Shown: piece by piece, positions 137-43,454 of the stretch
Layout: the number at the start of each line of letters is the position of its first letter
Position numbering within the stretch: the first letter of the stretch is position 1
Assembly: GCA_028285305.1 (NCBI GenBank)
Contig: JANQPV010000026.1
Location: 1-64,000 of the forward strand
Origin: Alphaproteobacteria bacterium
GTDB taxonomy: Bacteria > Pseudomonadota > Alphaproteobacteria > SMXP01
Direction of reading: 5' to 3'
Length of the DNA: 64,000 nucleotides
The notes under the pieces: model-generated
The model's input: the letters and a program-made list of their open reading frames with translations, nothing else
Told to the model about the DNA's origin: nothing
Database searches by the model: none
Translations under genes and position numbers: made by a program

Positions 137-1342
137 GGGCAAAACCGACAAAGCGACAATTTTTGCACGATGATGGTCGACTTTAGGCTCAAGTTCCACG
201 TTCGTCGCGTGTTCTACCTGAAACTCGGTTCCGCGCCTGCTGAACGCCGCAGAAATCGTTGCCAGGCCCAACACGCGTTTGAGCCGCGGCGACCATGTGG
301 ACGAAGTGACGGTTCCGGCGATGCGCCCTTCCACCAGGAGGCCAGCGCCTGTTACAGGAGCCGTGCCCGTAATCTCCAGACCAACCACTTTGGTTCTCGG
401 CCCGCTTTTTGCCAACTCCGTCAACGCAAGCTTCCCGTTGAAGTACGGCTTCGTCAAGTCGACAGCTTCATCCAGACCCAACTCGAACGGACTTCTAGGC
501 CGGTTTCCATAGAGGGCATGGCGCGCACTGACGAAATCTACACCGGGCATCAGCTGGCCCGCTTCGATCCGGCAGGATTCGAAGGTCTTCTGTCCAAGCG
601 GCAACACGCGAAACGCTCGCCCAGCGCGGATGACGCGTTCCCAGACCACAACTGCATCTTCGGGATCGACCCAGATTTCGAACCCCCGTTCGCTGAGTGC
701 ATTCGTTCCGCATATTTCAATCTCCAGCCCCCTTGCCTCGGCCGGTCCCCAAGTTCCCGGAGAGAATTGAACATTCTCATCATCGATAAGACTTGCGAGA
801 ACTTGAGATGACTTAGGTCCGCTCAATCCGAGAACGGCGTATTGAGGGCTGACATCGCGGACCGCCACATCTTTCAAATGAAGCGCGTTGGCATCGATCC
901 AAGACAACAGTTCCATATGCGTGACAAGCACAATGCTGTCATCGCTCCTCACCATGATCCGAACAATATCAATCACGTGGCCGTGGTTGTTGCAAACCGG
1001 AGACATGATCCATGCCCCCGCCTGGACTTGGCCCAGATCTCGCGTCAGCATTTGATTTACAAATTCGCGCGCATCACTGCCGGTCACCTCATACTTGATC
1101 ATAGGACTGAGGTCATATACGGCGGCCGTATTTCGCAGAGCATCGTATTCCTGCTCAAAACTCGAATAGGTCTCTGCAACCGTGTAGCCGTTCCAAGACG
1201 CCCACTGATTTGTGTGACTCAAATCGGAAGACACCACGTGAAATGGCGTGGGGAGTATCCGCGAGTCAAAAAACCGCGTCCTTTTGACATCCGTCGACAG
1301 ATTGCGGTCAGATTTGATGTCGTCTTCAGATTCAATAGTCAT
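134..1342 (-). CDS. GcvT-like folate-binding aminomethyltransferase family protein
   Basis: The 402-residue product has the two-part architecture of the glycine cleavage T-protein/dimethylglycine dehydrogenase C-terminal family: a folate-binding aminomethyltransferase domain (about residues 45-290, with AAVYDLSPMIKYEVTG early and the GxxSxRGFE-like stretch NALSERGFEIW later) and a C-terminal barrel (about 300-395). Family members transfer a one-carbon unit from an amine to tetrahydrofolate, or demethylate substrates such as DMSP. Its start overlaps the stop of the upstream FAD oxidoreductase by 4 bp, so the two are probably translationally coupled. I infer that it captures a one-carbon unit released by the oxidoreductases; no glycine-cleavage P or H gene is nearby, so it is probably not the housekeeping gcvT. 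The TAG stop lies in the edge of the hairpin repeat. Confidence 0.85.
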   Translation of the reverse strand: MTIESEDDIKSDRNLSTDVKRTRFFDSRILPTPFHVVSSDLSHTNQWASWNGYTVAETYSSFEQEYDALRNTAAVYDLSPMIKYEVTGSDAREFVNQMLTRDLGQVQAGAWIMSPVCNNHGHVIDIVRIMVRSDDSIVLVTHMELLSWIDANALHLKDVAVRDVSPQYAVLGLSGPKSSQVLASLIDDENVQFSPGTWGPAEARGLEIEICGTNALSERGFEIWVDPEDAVVVWERVIRAGRAFRVLPLGQKTFESCRIEAGQLMPGVDFVSARHALYGNRPRSPFELGLDEAVDLTKPYFNGKLALTELAKSGPRTKVVGLEITGTAPVTGAGLLVEGRIAGTVTSSTWSPRLKRVLGLATISAAFSRRGTEFQVEHATNVELEPKVDHHRAKIVALSVLP

Positions 1343-2988
1343 GATCGTCTCTTAACCGCATCTGAAATCACACGGGCGGCATTATGGCCCGCCAACCCTG
1401 TCAACCCGCCACCGGGATGCGTTCCCGCCCCGCACAAATAAAGCCCTTCAATCGGAGTTTTGTTTTGTGCCAACTCCGGCATGGATCGCATCGGCCCGAA
1501 CTGATCGAGAGAAAACTCTGTATGGTGCCAATTTCCTCCCCAGATACCAAACTCATCCTCGATATCAGCCGGCGTCATGATCCGTGCATCGAGAACCTTG
1601 TTGAGAAGATCCGGAGCATAGAACTTCAGCGCGTTGAGAATATGATGCTCGAACTGATCTCTTTTGGTGACCCATCCACCGGCAATATCGTAAGGCACAT
1701 ACTGGATAATGGCCGACATGTGATGGGTTTCGCCCGCCTCTTCGGAGAACAGGGACGGAAATACAATCTCTGCAATGGGCGCTAAGGCGTACTCCCCATA
1801 TTTGATCGCGGCCGAAGCGCGCTCAATGTAGTCAATATCTGGAGATATGACGATCCGGCCCCGGAACTCGTCTGGATTGAGACCTGTAATGTTCGGGAGT
1901 TCAGAAAGCTGTAAGTCGATCTTCGCAATCGCACCGTTCGATCGAATGGCTCGCAGCTTTTGGATGAACTCCAGATCAAAATGGCGAACCCCCGCTAAGC
2001 TGAGTATAGTCTGCTTGGGATCTAAGCTGGACACGATGATCTTCGCATCCAAGTTCATGCCCCCTTCCAAATCGACACCATGAACGCGCCCATCACTGAT
2101 CCGAATGTCCGTGACACGTGCATCGGTCATAATCTCAACATTGCGTGCTTGTGCTGACTTGGCGAGCGCATTGATAGCTGCAGTCATACCACCCACCGGA
2201 TATCCGACATTGGACTGCATGGCTAAATCCCGTTGAATCAGCCGTTGTAGATAGGAAAGCATCGTTCCCGCCTGGCGCGGACCGACATTCATTCCAAGGA
2301 CCGCATCAAAGGCAAGAGTGCCCCGCAAAAGATCCGTTTCGAACAAATCCTCCACGATATCCGCCACCGGCGCCATCAACCCTGACTGTGCGCGCTTCAG
2401 TATATCTGGCGATACTCTAGCCGCCTGCTCCAACCAACCGTGCAAAGACTCCAAGCTCGTATGCGACCCGAGTTCCAATGGTGGCGGCGCCATGGAAACA
2501 AAGCGTTTGAGGGCTGCTGCAACTTTGGTCCAATGGTCCGTGAAGTCACTATACTTATCTGCGTCTGATCTGGACAGCCGCTCGATCGATTCTCTAGACT
2601 CCTCAAGTGTTGGAGAGAGCGTCAACTTTCGCCCTTCCTCATCAATGGAAACGGTTCGGGTCCCATGACCCGAGAATCGAAGACCGAACTTGTTGAGCTT
2701 GAGATCACGAACGATGAAACCGGGGATTCCAGAGATCAAATGAGCAAAGTCTGAACTTTCGAGGGATCCGTGATCTTGGGTAGTATTGACCGCCATGCCG
2801 CCCAGCACCCCCCGGGCTTCCACGACGACGACCTCCAACCCCATTTTGGCCAAATAGTTTGCACACACCAGACCATTGTGACCGCCACCTACAACGATCG
2901 CATCATACTGCCATTTTCGAACGACGGCGGGCGACCCAATATCGTCGCGCTGCTCAAAAAAGTCGTCCTCTTGCGACTGATCACTCAT
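1339..2988 (-). CDS. Phytoene-desaturase/PYROXD2-like FAD-dependent oxidoreductase
   Basis: An N-terminal Rossmann FAD-binding motif (VVGGGHNGLVCANYLAKMG) follows a short hydrophilic leader. A substrate-domain motif (YPVGGMTAAINALAKSAQ) sits mid-protein, and a C-terminal FAD motif (GLYLCGAGTHPGGGLTGLAG) closes the fold. This is the phytoene desaturase/PYROXD2 class of flavin amine or hydrocarbon oxidoreductases; the substrate is unknown. I chose the ATG at 2988 (549 aa), which overlaps the upstream stop by 8 bp. An alternative start at 3027 would add 13 residues and overlap the neighbour by 47 bp. It is the second gene of a tight three-gene operon and a paralogue of the gene upstream. Confidence 0.88.
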   Translation of the reverse strand: MSDQSQEDDFFEQRDDIGSPAVVRKWQYDAIVVGGGHNGLVCANYLAKMGLEVVVVEARGVLGGMAVNTTQDHGSLESSDFAHLISGIPGFIVRDLKLNKFGLRFSGHGTRTVSIDEEGRKLTLSPTLEESRESIERLSRSDADKYSDFTDHWTKVAAALKRFVSMAPPPLELGSHTSLESLHGWLEQAARVSPDILKRAQSGLMAPVADIVEDLFETDLLRGTLAFDAVLGMNVGPRQAGTMLSYLQRLIQRDLAMQSNVGYPVGGMTAAINALAKSAQARNVEIMTDARVTDIRISDGRVHGVDLEGGMNLDAKIIVSSLDPKQTILSLAGVRHFDLEFIQKLRAIRSNGAIAKIDLQLSELPNITGLNPDEFRGRIVISPDIDYIERASAAIKYGEYALAPIAEIVFPSLFSEEAGETHHMSAIIQYVPYDIAGGWVTKRDQFEHHILNALKFYAPDLLNKVLDARIMTPADIEDEFGIWGGNWHHTEFSLDQFGPMRSMPELAQNKTPIEGLYLCGAGTHPGGGLTGLAGHNAARVISDAVKRRS

Positions 2989-4561
2989 CTTCGAATCCGC
3001 GGGCGATCCGGCGCGCGATACGCGCACCCGGCAAACCCGTCATTCCTCTATCTTCTGTCGTAACCGGAGAGCACAAATGGAACCCATCAATACCGGGAAG
3101 CGTGCCATTCGAACCGAGCAAAGCCGAACCGCTCAGAATTTGACTAAGACTCAGCTGACCGTGAAAGACATCACCATTGGTGAGAGAGAACTTATCCTCA
3201 AAGTCCCGAGGAACCGAAAGGCTCCAATCTTCAATCCGCTTCGTAAAGTCCGGGCTATGCGCTGCGATTTGATCAATAACGATCGTGGCTAGGCGCTCTC
3301 TCGCTGCCGTATCCCACGGCCCGCTTAGCAACTTGGTGGGTATATATTGAACGTATACTGACATCAAATGTTTACCCGTCGGGGCCAATGAAGGATCCAT
3401 AACAGATGGAATAGTGATCTCCAAAAAAGGCCGGGACGGTACAATTTGATCCCGCCACGCATCGTACGCCGCTTCTATCTCAAACAAGTTTGAGACAAAA
3501 TTCATTAACCCACCCAAAACCGTCGAGTCTTGCGGCAGGTTAGGAAACTTAGGCAAACCGTCCAAAGCGATATTGAGCTTGGCGAGCGTACCCTCCAGCT
3601 TGTAGTTGCGCGCTTGTTCGAGAACGCCGCGTTCGGTATCTTTCCAATCGAACAGCATCATCACGGACCGCTTAAGGTCCAAACTCGAAACGACGACTTT
3701 TGCCTTGACGGAAGTGCTGTCGATCAGCGTTAGGCCCCGCACCTTATTCTTTTCGACTTGCACTTCAATGACTTCGCTGCGCAGGTGAATATCGACGCCG
3801 GCATCTTTTGCCGCGCTCTCAAGCGCGTGACTCAAGCGATTCATTCCGCCGCGCACAAACCCCTGAGCTCCGTGCAGACTTTGATCGAATCCACAGCGAA
3901 GAAGCAGAAACGCCGTAGCCGGACAAAATGGCCCCTTGTCAACCCCCATGAAAACAGGTGAGGCAATATGGGCTTGGACAATATCTTCTTGAAAGTAGGA
4001 CTGTAAATAGTCTGCACACGAAGAGGTCCACAGTCTTACAGACTCCGACAACGCATCTTTGCCAAACTGCTCCACTTGGCCGAGCCACTTTCCCACGTCT
4101 TCCCGGAGATACCGCTTTCCAAAGCGTTGATCTGAGCCGATTCGAGGTTGCGACAGCGCCGCGATCCGCTTTTGGCGTGTCAGGTCGCGCAAAAACACCC
4201 GGTACATCTCTGCATCTTGCAACGAGAAGTACTTTATCGCGGAAAAGGATTGCCGCTCATCCCGGTTGGTCGTCAGAAACTGACCCTCGGCATTAAGTGT
4301 CGTTCGCCCAGGAAGCGGGATGATATCCAAACCATACTGGGAGAGATCAAGCTCACGCATGACCGATGGACTGAAGCCGGTCAGCACATGCGGCCCCTCG
4401 AAATAGGTAAAACCGGACGGTCCTTCACGCGTGACCGCGGCTCCCCCAACTTCTTTGTTTCGCTCGAAAACGCCTACGGAAAAACCGGCCTTTGCCAAAT
4501 AACAGGCCGCAATGAGGCCGTTGTGCCCCGCTCCGATGATCGCGATGTCATAATCTTTCAT
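2981..4561 (-). CDS. Phytoene-desaturase/PYROXD2-like FAD-dependent oxidoreductase (first of pair)
   Basis: The 526-residue flavoprotein begins at once with the dinucleotide-binding motif IAIIGAGHNGLIAACYLAKA. It has the central GGMNRLSHALESAAKDAG stretch typical of the phytoene desaturase fold and the C-terminal FAD-contact region (DGFHLCSPVTTEDRGMTGLPG). The usual CGAGTHPGG-type motif is here altered to CSPVTTEDRG, so it is divergent at the isoalloxazine-proximal end compared with the next gene. It is first in the operon; the two downstream genes overlap successively by 8 and 4 bp. The two paralogues may form a heteromeric enzyme (inference). No signal peptide or membrane segment is visible, so a cytoplasmic location is expected. 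Confidence 0.87.
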   Translation of the reverse strand: MKDYDIAIIGAGHNGLIAACYLAKAGFSVGVFERNKEVGGAAVTREGPSGFTYFEGPHVLTGFSPSVMRELDLSQYGLDIIPLPGRTTLNAEGQFLTTNRDERQSFSAIKYFSLQDAEMYRVFLRDLTRQKRIAALSQPRIGSDQRFGKRYLREDVGKWLGQVEQFGKDALSESVRLWTSSCADYLQSYFQEDIVQAHIASPVFMGVDKGPFCPATAFLLLRCGFDQSLHGAQGFVRGGMNRLSHALESAAKDAGVDIHLRSEVIEVQVEKNKVRGLTLIDSTSVKAKVVVSSLDLKRSVMMLFDWKDTERGVLEQARNYKLEGTLAKLNIALDGLPKFPNLPQDSTVLGGLMNFVSNLFEIEAAYDAWRDQIVPSRPFLEITIPSVMDPSLAPTGKHLMSVYVQYIPTKLLSGPWDTAARERLATIVIDQIAAHSPDFTKRIEDWSLSVPRDFEDKFSLTNGDVFHGQLSLSQILSGSALLGSNGTLPGIDGFHLCSPVTTEDRGMTGLPGARIARRIARGFEDE

Positions 4562-38630: not shown

Positions 38631-39290
38631 CTAATCTCCCAGCGCCAACGCAATCAAGGTTTCGACGGCACTGGCAAGCCGGTCACGCCCTTCTTCGGTG
38701 TTAATGGTGACACCATCAAAGACCTCGATCTTCCGTGAGCGAAGAACGAGATAGTTTGAAGCCGCCCCCAAAAGCACGGCAAGGGCGTCGATATCGACGT
38801 TCGTATCATTCAGACGGCCAGCAAATTGCTGAAGCAAGCGCTCACGTAGCTCAGCCGACCGTGTGGTTCGAATACGCTCAAGTTCAACCGTCAACTCATT
38901 TCGGTCGATTGTCTCCCACGCCATAATCTCAAGAGTCACAGGACGTCGAAGCAAGGCCTCCATATGCCGTTTCATCGCGGTTCCCATCCACACTGAGATT
39001 GTATTCGGTCTTCCATACGGCAGTCCGTCACCGACAATCTCGTCAACGGTCCACCAGAAGTCTCCTTGCTCCGCATACGCCCGAAGGAGACCTTCCATGC
39101 CACCAAAGTACCGATAGACGAGTACCTTATCGACACCGGCCTCCCGGGCAATCGCGTTCACGCCCAACTTGCCGAATCCTTCGCGAGCGATGAAGGCACC
39201 CACAGCATCCAAGAGCCGCGCAGACGTGGTTTTGCGATCTCTCTCTCTTGGACTTGTATCAACTTTCCCAGGGTTCTCGGGCATTTTCAT
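38631..39290 (-). CDS. TetR-family transcriptional regulator
   Basis: A 219-residue regulator: N-terminal helix-turn-helix (REGFGKLGVNAIAREAGVDK, about 35-60), followed by VLVYRYFGGMEGLL, and a C-terminal ligand/dimer domain of about 140 residues. It begins about 15 bp from two GTCAC-N6-GTGAC palindromes, so autoregulation is likely. Its stop is 25 bp before the start of the Acg-like gene, so the two are probably co-transcribed and the nitroreductase and quinone reductase may be its regulon. Confidence 0.92.
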   Translation of the reverse strand: MKMPENPGKVDTSPRERDRKTTSARLLDAVGAFIAREGFGKLGVNAIAREAGVDKVLVYRYFGGMEGLLRAYAEQGDFWWTVDEIVGDGLPYGRPNTISVWMGTAMKRHMEALLRRPVTLEIMAWETIDRNELTVELERIRTTRSAELRERLLQQFAGRLNDTNVDIDALAVLLGAASNYLVLRSRKIEVFDGVTINTEEGRDRLASAVETLIALALGD

Positions 39291-40870: not shown

Positions 40871-40925
40871 GGACCGGAATCGTCATCCCGGCCCTCAGCA
40901 TTCGTTAAACTCACTTGCTTTGGAC

Positions 40926-41061
40926 TAGAGCCGTTTTGGTTTTGACGGAAACACAAAACGGCTCCAGATTCTTTGTTTTGCGCGTTTCCTGACGGTGGTA
41001 AGGCGCATTCGCGCCGAGCGATTCCGTTCGCTTGGTCGATTGATCCTCGATCAATCGCCTC
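40926..41061. repeat. 136-bp multi-hairpin dispersed repeat, copy 2 (inverted)
   Basis: The reverse complement of 1-136 with five substitutions. The long hairpin is at 40928-40938/40954-40964, and the terminal palindrome at 41037-41045/41049-41057 keeps 9 of its 11 bp. It lies between the convergent small membrane gene and the VOC-protein gene. Two differences fall in stems (one changes an A-T pair to a G-T wobble, one a loop-closing pair) and one in the loop of the long hairpin, one in a spacer and one at the outer edge of the palindrome. Confidence 0.9.
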
Positions 41062-41569: not shown

Positions 41570-42613
41570 CTAAATCTCGCGGCAGAATTTCGCAATGCTG
41601 GCCGCCGTTTCCCGGCTGATCTCGGGGCACGCGATCGCGAAGATTTCGACGGCGTGCGGTGTTCCCATGACCTGCCGGCACTGGGTGGGTACGCCGGCGC
41701 GCAGAAGCAGACGGTAAAATTCAAGTCCTTCGTCCCGCAAAGGATCGCACTCATTCAGACTGATGAAGGTCGGCACAAGGCCTTTGACATCATCAACCGT
41801 GGCTAAGCCGGGCCAAGCCAGTGGATTCTTTTGCTCTACGTGTTCAATGCCATAGGCAAGCGGAATACTGTTTCCATGCACATTGATCACCAGCCCATTG
41901 TTTTCGGCCGAGGACGGAAGATGATCTTGCGGCCACTTTCCTGCAATAAACGGACACAGTGCATAAAGACCCCGGATAAGACCCAAATCGCCGTCTTGCT
42001 TGAGTTTTAGACCTGTGGCGAGCGTCAGGTTCCCGCCCCCGCTCTCTCCAGCAACAATTACATGGTTGGGATCGATGCCAAAATCTCCCGCATTCGCAGT
42101 CACCCACTTGAGCCCTGAAACACAATCGTTGAGGCCGCCCGGGAACGGAACAATCTCTGGAGACGAGGACGGCGTGATGCAATTGCGGAAGTCGACCATG
42201 GCAACAGCCACACCTTGTTGAGCGATAATTTTGCCCCAGGCCCTGTACAAACCGTAAAAACAGGACATATGCGCCATGCCGCCCCCATGGATATAATAGA
42301 CGCACGGAACAGGTCCTTCGCTCTCTGGGCGAATAAAATTCAGCTTGATCGTATTGCCATCCGGAGAAGACACGAATTCATGCTCGCTTATGTCGAGCCC
42401 TGTGGACGGCGCCACTTCTTCATTGTCGATCATGTCCAGAAACTGTTTGGTTTGCTCAAGTACGGCGAGGGCTTCCGGGGTGTTCGCTTTGGCAACGACG
42501 TCTTCTCGCGATGTGCCGTTTTGTTCGACCGGTGCCGGCATAGCGCCCAACATGGTACGAATACGCGGATCAAGGCGCTCATCTGAGGCGATTTTGTTTA
42601 CGGGCGCGTCCAT
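41570..42613 (-). CDS. Alpha/beta hydrolase, hormone-sensitive lipase family
   Basis: A 347-residue esterase: oxyanion motif YYIHGGGMAH, nucleophile elbow AGESGGGN, and a late GTPHAVEIF His. This is the HSL/GDSAG (family IV) class acting on short acyl esters. The ATG at 42613 is chosen with a GGAGGAG six bases upstream; the TTG at 42628 falls inside that ribosome-binding site. Confidence 0.92.
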   Translation of the reverse strand: MDAPVNKIASDERLDPRIRTMLGAMPAPVEQNGTSREDVVAKANTPEALAVLEQTKQFLDMIDNEEVAPSTGLDISEHEFVSSPDGNTIKLNFIRPESEGPVPCVYYIHGGGMAHMSCFYGLYRAWGKIIAQQGVAVAMVDFRNCITPSSSPEIVPFPGGLNDCVSGLKWVTANAGDFGIDPNHVIVAGESGGGNLTLATGLKLKQDGDLGLIRGLYALCPFIAGKWPQDHLPSSAENNGLVINVHGNSIPLAYGIEHVEQKNPLAWPGLATVDDVKGLVPTFISLNECDPLRDEGLEFYRLLLRAGVPTQCRQVMGTPHAVEIFAIACPEISRETAASIAKFCREI

Positions 42614-42729
42614 AGCAGTCTCCTCCAACCGTTAGAATTCATGTGCTTGCATGTTCATTACGGTGCTAACTGGAGGGATGCAAGGCGCGACCAAACGAAG
42701 TGCGGATCTTCGTCGGGTGGGAGGTCCCC

Positions 42730-42774
42730 AAAAGAAAACCCCCGGCGCATCATGATAAGGGGTGCGTCCGGGGG
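42730..42774 (-). terminator. Rho-independent terminator of the small-peptide genes
   Basis: On the minus strand, the arms CCCCCGGACGCA and TGCGCCGGGGG (one bulged base) close a 13-nt loop and are followed by TTTTCTTTT. It lies about 38 bp beyond the third small peptide gene and 117 bp before the HSL esterase start, so the esterase probably has its own promoter. Confidence 0.88.
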
Positions 42775-42811
42775 CGGGAGAGAATTCTCTAATTCTCTTG
42801 GGGGGTAAAGC

Positions 42812-42901
42812 TTACAAGATCGCGAAGGGTGCGGCCACGGCACTCAAGCCATAAAGGCTGACGGCGATCGGAATAAGCTCCATAAAGGATCTCATTTTCA
42901 T
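42812..42901 (-). CDS. Small hydrophobic peptide, third member (29 aa)
   Basis: A 29-residue frame (ATG at 42901, TAA at 42812) lies 31 bp after the second 32-aa peptide gene. The N-terminus is charged (KMR) and the rest hydrophobic: IPIAVSLYGLSAVAAPFAIL. The stretch LSAVAAPF lines up with LGAVVNQF and LGAVINQF of the two peptides upstream (shared LxAVxxxF), so I regard it as a divergent paralogue. The ribosome-binding site is weaker than those of the other two; an ATG at 42895 is an alternative. A strong terminator follows. Function unknown. Confidence 0.55.
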   Translation of the reverse strand: MKMRSFMELIPIAVSLYGLSAVAAPFAIL

Positions 42902-42932
42902 TCTCGTATCTGGTTACTCAGTGTTCGTTCTA

Positions 42933-43031
42933 TTAGACGACAACGCCGAGGGTGAATTGGTTTATGACCGCGCCAAGGGCGGCGATGGTGATGGCTGTGG
43001 TAATCAAAGCTGCTGTAAATCCGATTTTCAT
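42933..43031 (-). CDS. Small hydrophobic peptide (32 aa), copy 2
   Basis: A 32-residue frame with GGAGAGAG six bases before the ATG. The N-terminus is MKIGFTAALITTAIT and the C-terminus NQFTLGVVV, giving one hydrophobic segment spanning nearly the whole chain, with Lys as the only basic residue and no acidic residue. It differs from copy 1 in 15 of 99 bases, but nine of the twelve changed codons are silent and the three amino-acid changes are conservative or mild (K/R2, I/V23, L/T28). This pattern supports translation. It may sit in or on the inner membrane. Function unknown. Confidence 0.82.
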   Translation of the reverse strand: MKIGFTAALITTAITIAALGAVINQFTLGVVV

Positions 43032-43076
43032 GTCTCTCTCCAATAGGTTGGTTGGGGGTAAGAACTAAAAGCTCAA

Positions 43077-43175
43077 TTAGACGACCACACCGGTGGTGAA
43101 TTGGTTCACGACAGCACCCAAAGCGGCGATCGTGATGGCGGTGGTGATCAAAGCTGCTGTAAATCCGATTCTCAT
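43077..43175 (-). CDS. Small hydrophobic peptide (32 aa), copy 1
   Basis: A 32-residue frame with a strong ribosome-binding site (AAGGAG, six-base spacer) before the ATG at 43175. It begins MRIGFTAALITTAIT and ends NQFTTGVVV. Similarity to copy 2 extends across the coding region and about ten bases of ribosome-binding site, and stops abruptly outside these bounds, so the shared unit is the gene. It is the promoter-proximal gene of a three-gene minus-strand cluster, and an AT-rich region with direct repeats lies upstream. It resembles no family I know; it is not a light-harvesting or CydX-type peptide (no His, no such motif). Confidence 0.85.
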   Translation of the reverse strand: MRIGFTAALITTAITIAALGAVVNQFTTGVVV

Positions 43176-43280
43176 GTCTCTCTCCTTTGAATTTCTGAGG
43201 CCGTCTCGGCCAGTGAACTCAATGTAGGCTTCTTTGATGAAATTACAATGAATAAAACGATAAATATTTACTGTTTATCA

Positions 43281-43317
43281 TTCATGGTACGATTTTGCGC
43301 TTTTCAAGGTATGATTT
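43281..43317. promoter_or_regulatory. Tandem 15-bp direct repeat upstream of small-peptide genes
   Basis: TTCATGGTACGATTT (43281-43295) and TTCAAGGTATGATTT (43303-43317) match at 13 of 15 bases and are offset by 22 bp, two helical turns. They lie 105-140 bp upstream of the first peptide start, next to an AT-rich stretch with TAAATATTTA. Position and phasing suggest a binding site for an activator or repressor dimer; the protein is unknown. Confidence 0.6.
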
Positions 43318-43454
43318 AGCACTATGCACAAAACGCATGGCTCGCGGAGCCGTAAGAAAAACTGTAATATCTGGCGAATTTCCCTTAGTTTTGCTGACCC
43401 ATGATCTCTGCCGTGATCAATTCTAATTACGTCGGGTCGAGGCTAGCGGATGCC

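Follow-up and report, generated by a model that had tools for sequence, protein, structure and literature searches.

Small regulatory membrane proteins such as AcrZ, MgtS, KdpF and CydX are about 30-50 aa in length, consist of one helix and are often missed by gene callers (PMC7267776, PMC4325964). Short hydrophobic membrane peptides are also represented by the type I toxins (Fst/Ldr, Ibs, TisB, ZorO, TimP) (PMC8309996), some of which occur as duplicated near-identical copies, e.g., zorO/zorP (PMC3919570). The local targets of TetR regulators are typically pumps or enzymes.

The micropeptides described here are similar to AcrZ, MgtS, KdpF and CydX in size, in possessing a single helix and in escaping gene callers. 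Nevertheless, no sequence relation to these proteins was found, and whereas the known proteins usually act on one known partner, a TetR-type operator is here followed by one to four micropeptides that stand alone. An RNA antitoxin is the defining component of type I toxin systems, and no sign of one was found; the micropeptides are instead accompanied by a transcriptional regulator and a fixed locus between tsaD and gpsA. The regulator, encoded on contig C36 of the same genome, resembles TetR/AcrR regulators with a TetR_C_27 domain (PF17935), with the exception that its presumed target operon encodes micropeptides only. The chromosomal place is that of the alphaproteobacterial tsaD-gpsA-yciI-EVE gene cluster, in the relevant sections of whose description no micropeptide cassette between tsaD and gpsA appears (PMC7641849). 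Searches of Pfam, NCBIfam, PHROGs and PADLOC returned no micropeptide family at useful scores, in agreement with the preliminary description of the locus, whose author knew of no such family. A profile search of the PDB yielded no useful relative, the matches to bacteriorhodopsin helices being due to chance. The locus is undescribed in the open-access literature searched; preprints and most subscription journals lay outside the search. Small membrane proteins as a kind are already known; what seems to be new is a family of tandem micropeptides that is linked to TetR and marked by an operator.

The window, i.e., the whole stretch of 64,000 nucleotides that was analysed, carries on its minus strand what is very likely a three-gene operon, A-A'-B (43272-42730), of single-transmembrane micropeptides that form part of a wider family; translation is inferred and was not observed. 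In minus-strand order, the operator/promoter region (43272-43221) is followed by A, A', B and a G+C-rich hairpin with a T-run (Table 1), and C-rich stretches lie between the genes. The preliminary description dealt with A and A'; it did not mention micropeptide B, the terminator, the upstream operator/promoter or the homologous operon that the genome carries at another site. The window operator fits the operator pattern of the 46 TetR-carrying genomes with one mismatch. The promoter was placed by alignment with 27 other operator-promoter sites and was not listed by a generic promoter scan. The terminator hairpin was read from the sequence and forms part of the predicted folded transcript; a terminator pattern scan did not report it, its loop exceeding the limit of the pattern. 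Rfam and tRNA searches of the window gave no match. Beyond the terminator lies an alpha/beta hydrolase gene (Abhydrolase_3), which was rejected as a member of the system because the terminator intervenes and no strong match (E <= 1e-20) was observed in the other genomes of the family. The other flank of the operon is occupied by an opposite-strand frame without Pfam match.

Table 1. Features of the micropeptide operon in the window, and operator sites remote from a TetR gene.
Feature	Position	Strand	Description
TetR-type operator (inverted repeat)	43246..43272	-	AGTAAATAT-N8-TTATTCATT plus G; putative, no binding data
Sigma70-like promoter, overlapping the operator	43221..43248	-	-35 TTGTAA, 16 bp, -10 TACATT
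Shine-Dalgarno of A	43178..43187	-	AAGGAGAGAG
Micropeptide A	43077..43175	-	32 aa, MRIGFTAALITTAITIAALGAVVNQFTTGVVV; homologue adjoins the TetR gene on contig C36
Shine-Dalgarno of A'	43034..43043	-	TTGGAGAGAG
Micropeptide A'	42933..43031	-	32 aa, MKIGFTAALITTAITIAALGAVINQFTLGVVV; tandem paralogue of A
Micropeptide B	42812..42901	-	29 aa (27 if second ATG), MKMRSFMELIPIAVSLYGLSAVAAPFAIL; weak ribosome-binding site
Likely intrinsic terminator	42730..42774	-	CCCCCGG..CGCA loop TGCG..CCGGGGG, TTTTCTTTT
Operator sites away from TetR			window; G315:C96 (three micropeptides); G268:C3 (four micropeptides); G153:C2 (none)

A and A' differ at 15 of 99 bases, distributed 3/2/10 over the three codon positions, and 12 codons are changed, nine of them silently and three by replacement (R/K, V/I and T/L). 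When the substitutions were placed at random positions, with the transition and transversion counts kept as observed, a mean of 8.8 replacements was obtained, and three or fewer were seen in only 0.01% of trials. The resulting pN/pS (NG86) is 0.22, with a Fisher p of 0.0015. The leader GGAGAGAGACATG precedes both genes in the same letters, and the likeness is bounded by the ribosome-binding site and the stop codon, the intergenic sequence differing between the copies. Each peptide contains one basic residue and no acidic residue, and A is predicted from its single sequence (AF2) to form a single helix over residues 2-31 with a mean pLDDT of 91. The base and codon counts of the preliminary description held exactly, as did its matching ribosome-binding sites with likeness ending at the edges of the gene and of that site, and its chain of one basic and no acidic residue. 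The selection on the peptide that it had proposed is upheld by a number of replacements far below random expectation. Its reading of one hydrophobic segment with likely membrane action is supported by the predicted helix and by the K/R bias discussed below, membrane action itself being inferred.

A homologue of A is present on contig C36 of the same genome, between tsaD and gpsA and on the strand opposite to both. The order there is TetR gene, promoter, 42-aa homologue of A with the ribosome-binding site TTGGAGAGA as in the window, 32-aa homologue of B containing PIAVSLWGLSA, and a hairpin with a T-run that is the equivalent of the window terminator. The promoter-region motif AACAGTAAATNTTTNNNNNNTTATTNATTGT occurs in this genome only in the window and on C36, even with three mismatches allowed, and the reversed control gave zero. 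The C36 regulator scores above the cut-off for PF00440 and PF17935; it is the TetR orthologue of this genome and is unlinked to the window. The two loci are paralogous operons with the same order and terminator, which supports the operon reading. B remains the least supported member, resting on one distant pair and having a weak ribosome-binding site. B and its C36 homologue share PIAVSLxGLSA; 6 silent and 5 replacement codons are found in the aligned 17-codon core, and pN/pS over the whole alignment is 0.72.

In the other four genomes of the family, the TetR gene is divergent from gpsA and is followed by the same promoter and a homologue of A, which is Shine-Dalgarno-led, 36-44 aa long and ends in a motif like DxATxxLVI. 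Of 385 alphaproteobacterial genomes, 46 contain one TetR orthologue each according to a profile search (E <= 1e-25), and its surroundings were read in 45 of these, G171 being left out. Shine-Dalgarno-led hydrophobic ORFs, mostly 29-51 aa and one to three in number, follow TetR on the same strand at 29 of the 45 loci, with gpsA just upstream on the other strand in about 25 of the 29; in G186, G342 and G058 there is one candidate only, and no close relative is available for comparison. No micropeptide adjoins TetR at the remaining 16 loci, one of which belongs to a genome (G268) with an unlinked operon. The number of micropeptides ranges from one to six per genome, and the TetR-micropeptide loci keep a fixed chromosomal place with the regulator in about 12 families. 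An odd pair of tiny frames has hereby become a conserved and apparently regulated family of genes, which 30 of the 46 regulator-carrying genomes sampled possess and which spans about 12 alphaproteobacterial families.

ORFs qualifying as micropeptide genes (ATG, Shine-Dalgarno, 28-52 aa, 15-residue hydropathy >= 1.75) are present at 26 of 30 operator loci and, among 809 equally large control windows, in 7; the Fisher p of 6e-39 is only a guide because the loci are related by descent. Seven same-genus pairs gave pN/pS values of 0.06-0.59, G232/G315 standing at 0.59, with a pooled value of 0.33 (Fisher p = 3e-18). In agreement with this, values of 0.50 and 0.25 were obtained for the unlinked G315 paralogues and the G268 tandem pair, respectively, and concentration of the differences at silent sites was seen in ten comparisons. 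The micropeptides are under protein-level selection, the case for B being weaker. As supporting observations in relatives, the preliminary description had named conservation of the ribosome-binding site and a dN/dS well below 1; the pooled same-genus value satisfies the latter, and the Shine-Dalgarno-led ORFs, far above background, satisfy the former. It had also proposed a search of the same neighbourhood in related genomes; this would miss the relatives, most of which lie between tsaD and gpsA, because the window copy is unlinked from its presumed regulator.

The relatives were reached through gpsA synteny in the family, then TetR in the class, and then the operator. When the peptides alone were searched against viral contigs, GTDB genomes and plasmids, no relatives were found, and profile searches of the class with A or B alone gave chance matches outside the family, save for a weak match in G007, which is real and lies downstream of TetR. 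Such searches fail because sequences of 30 aa change too rapidly and face strict E-value limits. The back-translated B motif gave six matches in GTDB, all of which were rejected as chance when judged by frame.

The operator consensus from 28 aligned sites is AATGAATAA-N8-TTATTCATT, followed by GTTTTT and then, at an almost fixed distance, by CTATAT. It constitutes a 26-bp inverted repeat with a fixed 8-bp spacer, whose right arm overlaps the -35 box. When the 46 TetR-carrying genomes were scanned with one mismatch allowed, 23 were matched, and the reversed control matched none. Nearly all matches stand between TetR and the peptides, and four are found elsewhere (Table 1). Three unlinked copies, the window operon among them, emerge from these matches away from TetR; at the fourth site, in the TetR-carrying genome G153, no peptide was found. 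In G268, whose TetR has no adjoining peptides, the last two of the four unlinked peptides are near-identical (10 of 102 bases differ), so the near-identical tandem pair of the window has an independent parallel. Operator, TetR and peptides co-occur. Most of the matches to the operator pattern in TetR-free genomes come from small genomes that the reversed control hits as well; examination of 23 such loci yielded two loosely qualifying ORFs, neither of which is family-like. The operator alone found two further unlinked micropeptide operons, and a search based on the switch can thus reveal more. We also note that in G031 (L148 1932-2250) the operator follows TetR, with no hydrophobic micropeptide recognised and a different gene next.

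Of the K/R residues flanking the helices, 104 of 115 are on the N-terminal side, from which an N-in/C-out orientation is expected; the micropeptides are predicted to be single N-in helices. In loose alignments, many members carry the helix motif [YW]xxAxxxx[QED] and end in a short hydrophobic tail, and A and A' carry N24-Q25 near the corresponding place. As this motif is loose, homology across families rests more on position, operator and architecture than on peptide sequence.

The reading that we prefer combines the operon and its family, control by TetR and a role as membrane modulators, and is assigned a probability of roughly 0.5. Its parts are not equally secure. Control of the operon by TetR is likely, with repression inferred in the absence of TetR binding data; a modulating effect of the peptides on the bilayer or on a membrane protein is a tentative proposal, which we would not yet favour over its negation, the target and the action being inferred. 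TetR, whose gene in most cases lies between tsaD and gpsA and runs opposite to them, would repress by covering the -35 box, a seat suggested by the overlap with the right arm of the operator. The promoter with its 26-bp operator would drive one to four tandem micropeptide genes, and the C36 TetR would act in trans on the unlinked window operon. A hydrophobic or lipid-like ligand may release TetR, upon which the peptides would enter the inner membrane. Under stress on the membrane or from hydrophobic compounds, they would act there as small modulators, either of the bilayer or of an integral membrane protein. In G199, G187 and G128, an MMPL/RND exporter gene comes immediately after a distant member of the TetR group, and two of these exporters also match sterol-sensing-domain models; this adjacency hints at a hydrophobic ligand. 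In G289 and G197, an operator-like repeat is followed by an NmrA-like gene. A bolder reading, possible but less likely than not, is a widespread alphaproteobacterial membrane-stress regulon consisting of micropeptides only, in which TetR as a sensor of a lipid-like ligand would release single-helix peptides encoded in tandem, these would directly adjust a core membrane enzyme or the inner membrane itself, and the sets would duplicate, move to unlinked sites and keep the operator. The regulator offers a handle for induction and with it a direct way to learn the function of the peptides.

Several alternatives were considered. The peptides could be toxins that depolarise or permeabilise the inner membrane, restrained by TetR instead of an antisense RNA. 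Their size, single helix and tandem near-identical copies recall Ldr/Ibs/Zor-type toxins, and the tight control, with a promoter-region motif confined to these operons, would be in keeping with this view. It is nevertheless unlikely, toxicity being inferred: no antisense promoter is predicted on either strand within 42600-43450 (weak evidence, since the same scan missed the likely operon promoter), the window transcript is not unusually structured (z -1.6), PADLOC gives no match, and the loci stay in place beside their regulator across the families, unlike scattered addiction modules. Also unlikely is a role as CydX- or KdpF-like structural subunits of a constitutive membrane complex, with TetR setting the amount only. 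Single helices of 30-50 aa and the recurring aromatic and amide/acid helix positions, which could serve as contacts, speak for such subunits; against them, the genes adjoin no membrane complex and no constant membrane partner is encoded near the loci, the peptide number varies between genomes, and the sequence evolves fast. It is very unlikely that the peptides are precursors of exported hydrophobic pheromones sensed by TetR in a quorum-sensing loop. The N-in orientation, which would leave a short hydrophobic C-terminal tail outside, and the adjoining regulator and peptide genes would suit this, but TetR resides in the cytoplasm, no protease or importer gene is a constant neighbour, and to our knowledge no TetR regulator senses hydrophobic peptide pheromones. 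A conserved RNA (leader, sRNA or 3' UTR) with incidental reading frames, which the conserved promoter and terminator and the C-rich stretches might suggest, is all but excluded, being largely refuted by the pN/pS values with their silent-site excess in ten comparisons, by inter-gene sequence not common to the copies and by the lack of an Rfam match.

Further features were observed in passing. A short frame, RWLTWMETLF.LRNRAYSG, follows the A-homologue micropeptide (L056, L057, L058) in G004 and G003 and, in diverged form, in G002; it is conserved and not hydrophobic throughout. A second TetR-type gene, identified by reading the sequence, is located at 38631-39290 of the window, on the strand of the operon and ~3.5 kb further downstream; at E <= 1e-25 it is not grouped with the orthologues of the C36 regulator. 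At 1339-4561 of the window, two adjoining genes of 562 and 526 aa, which share an overlap of 47 bases, were recognised from sequence reading only as resembling FAD-dependent oxidoreductases. A dispersed intergenic repeat of ~73 bp occurs at 65-138 and 40925-40997 of the window and at 1535-1608 of L013, the copies being 96-97% identical; it is also present near the C36 operon and, in a diverged form, in L058.
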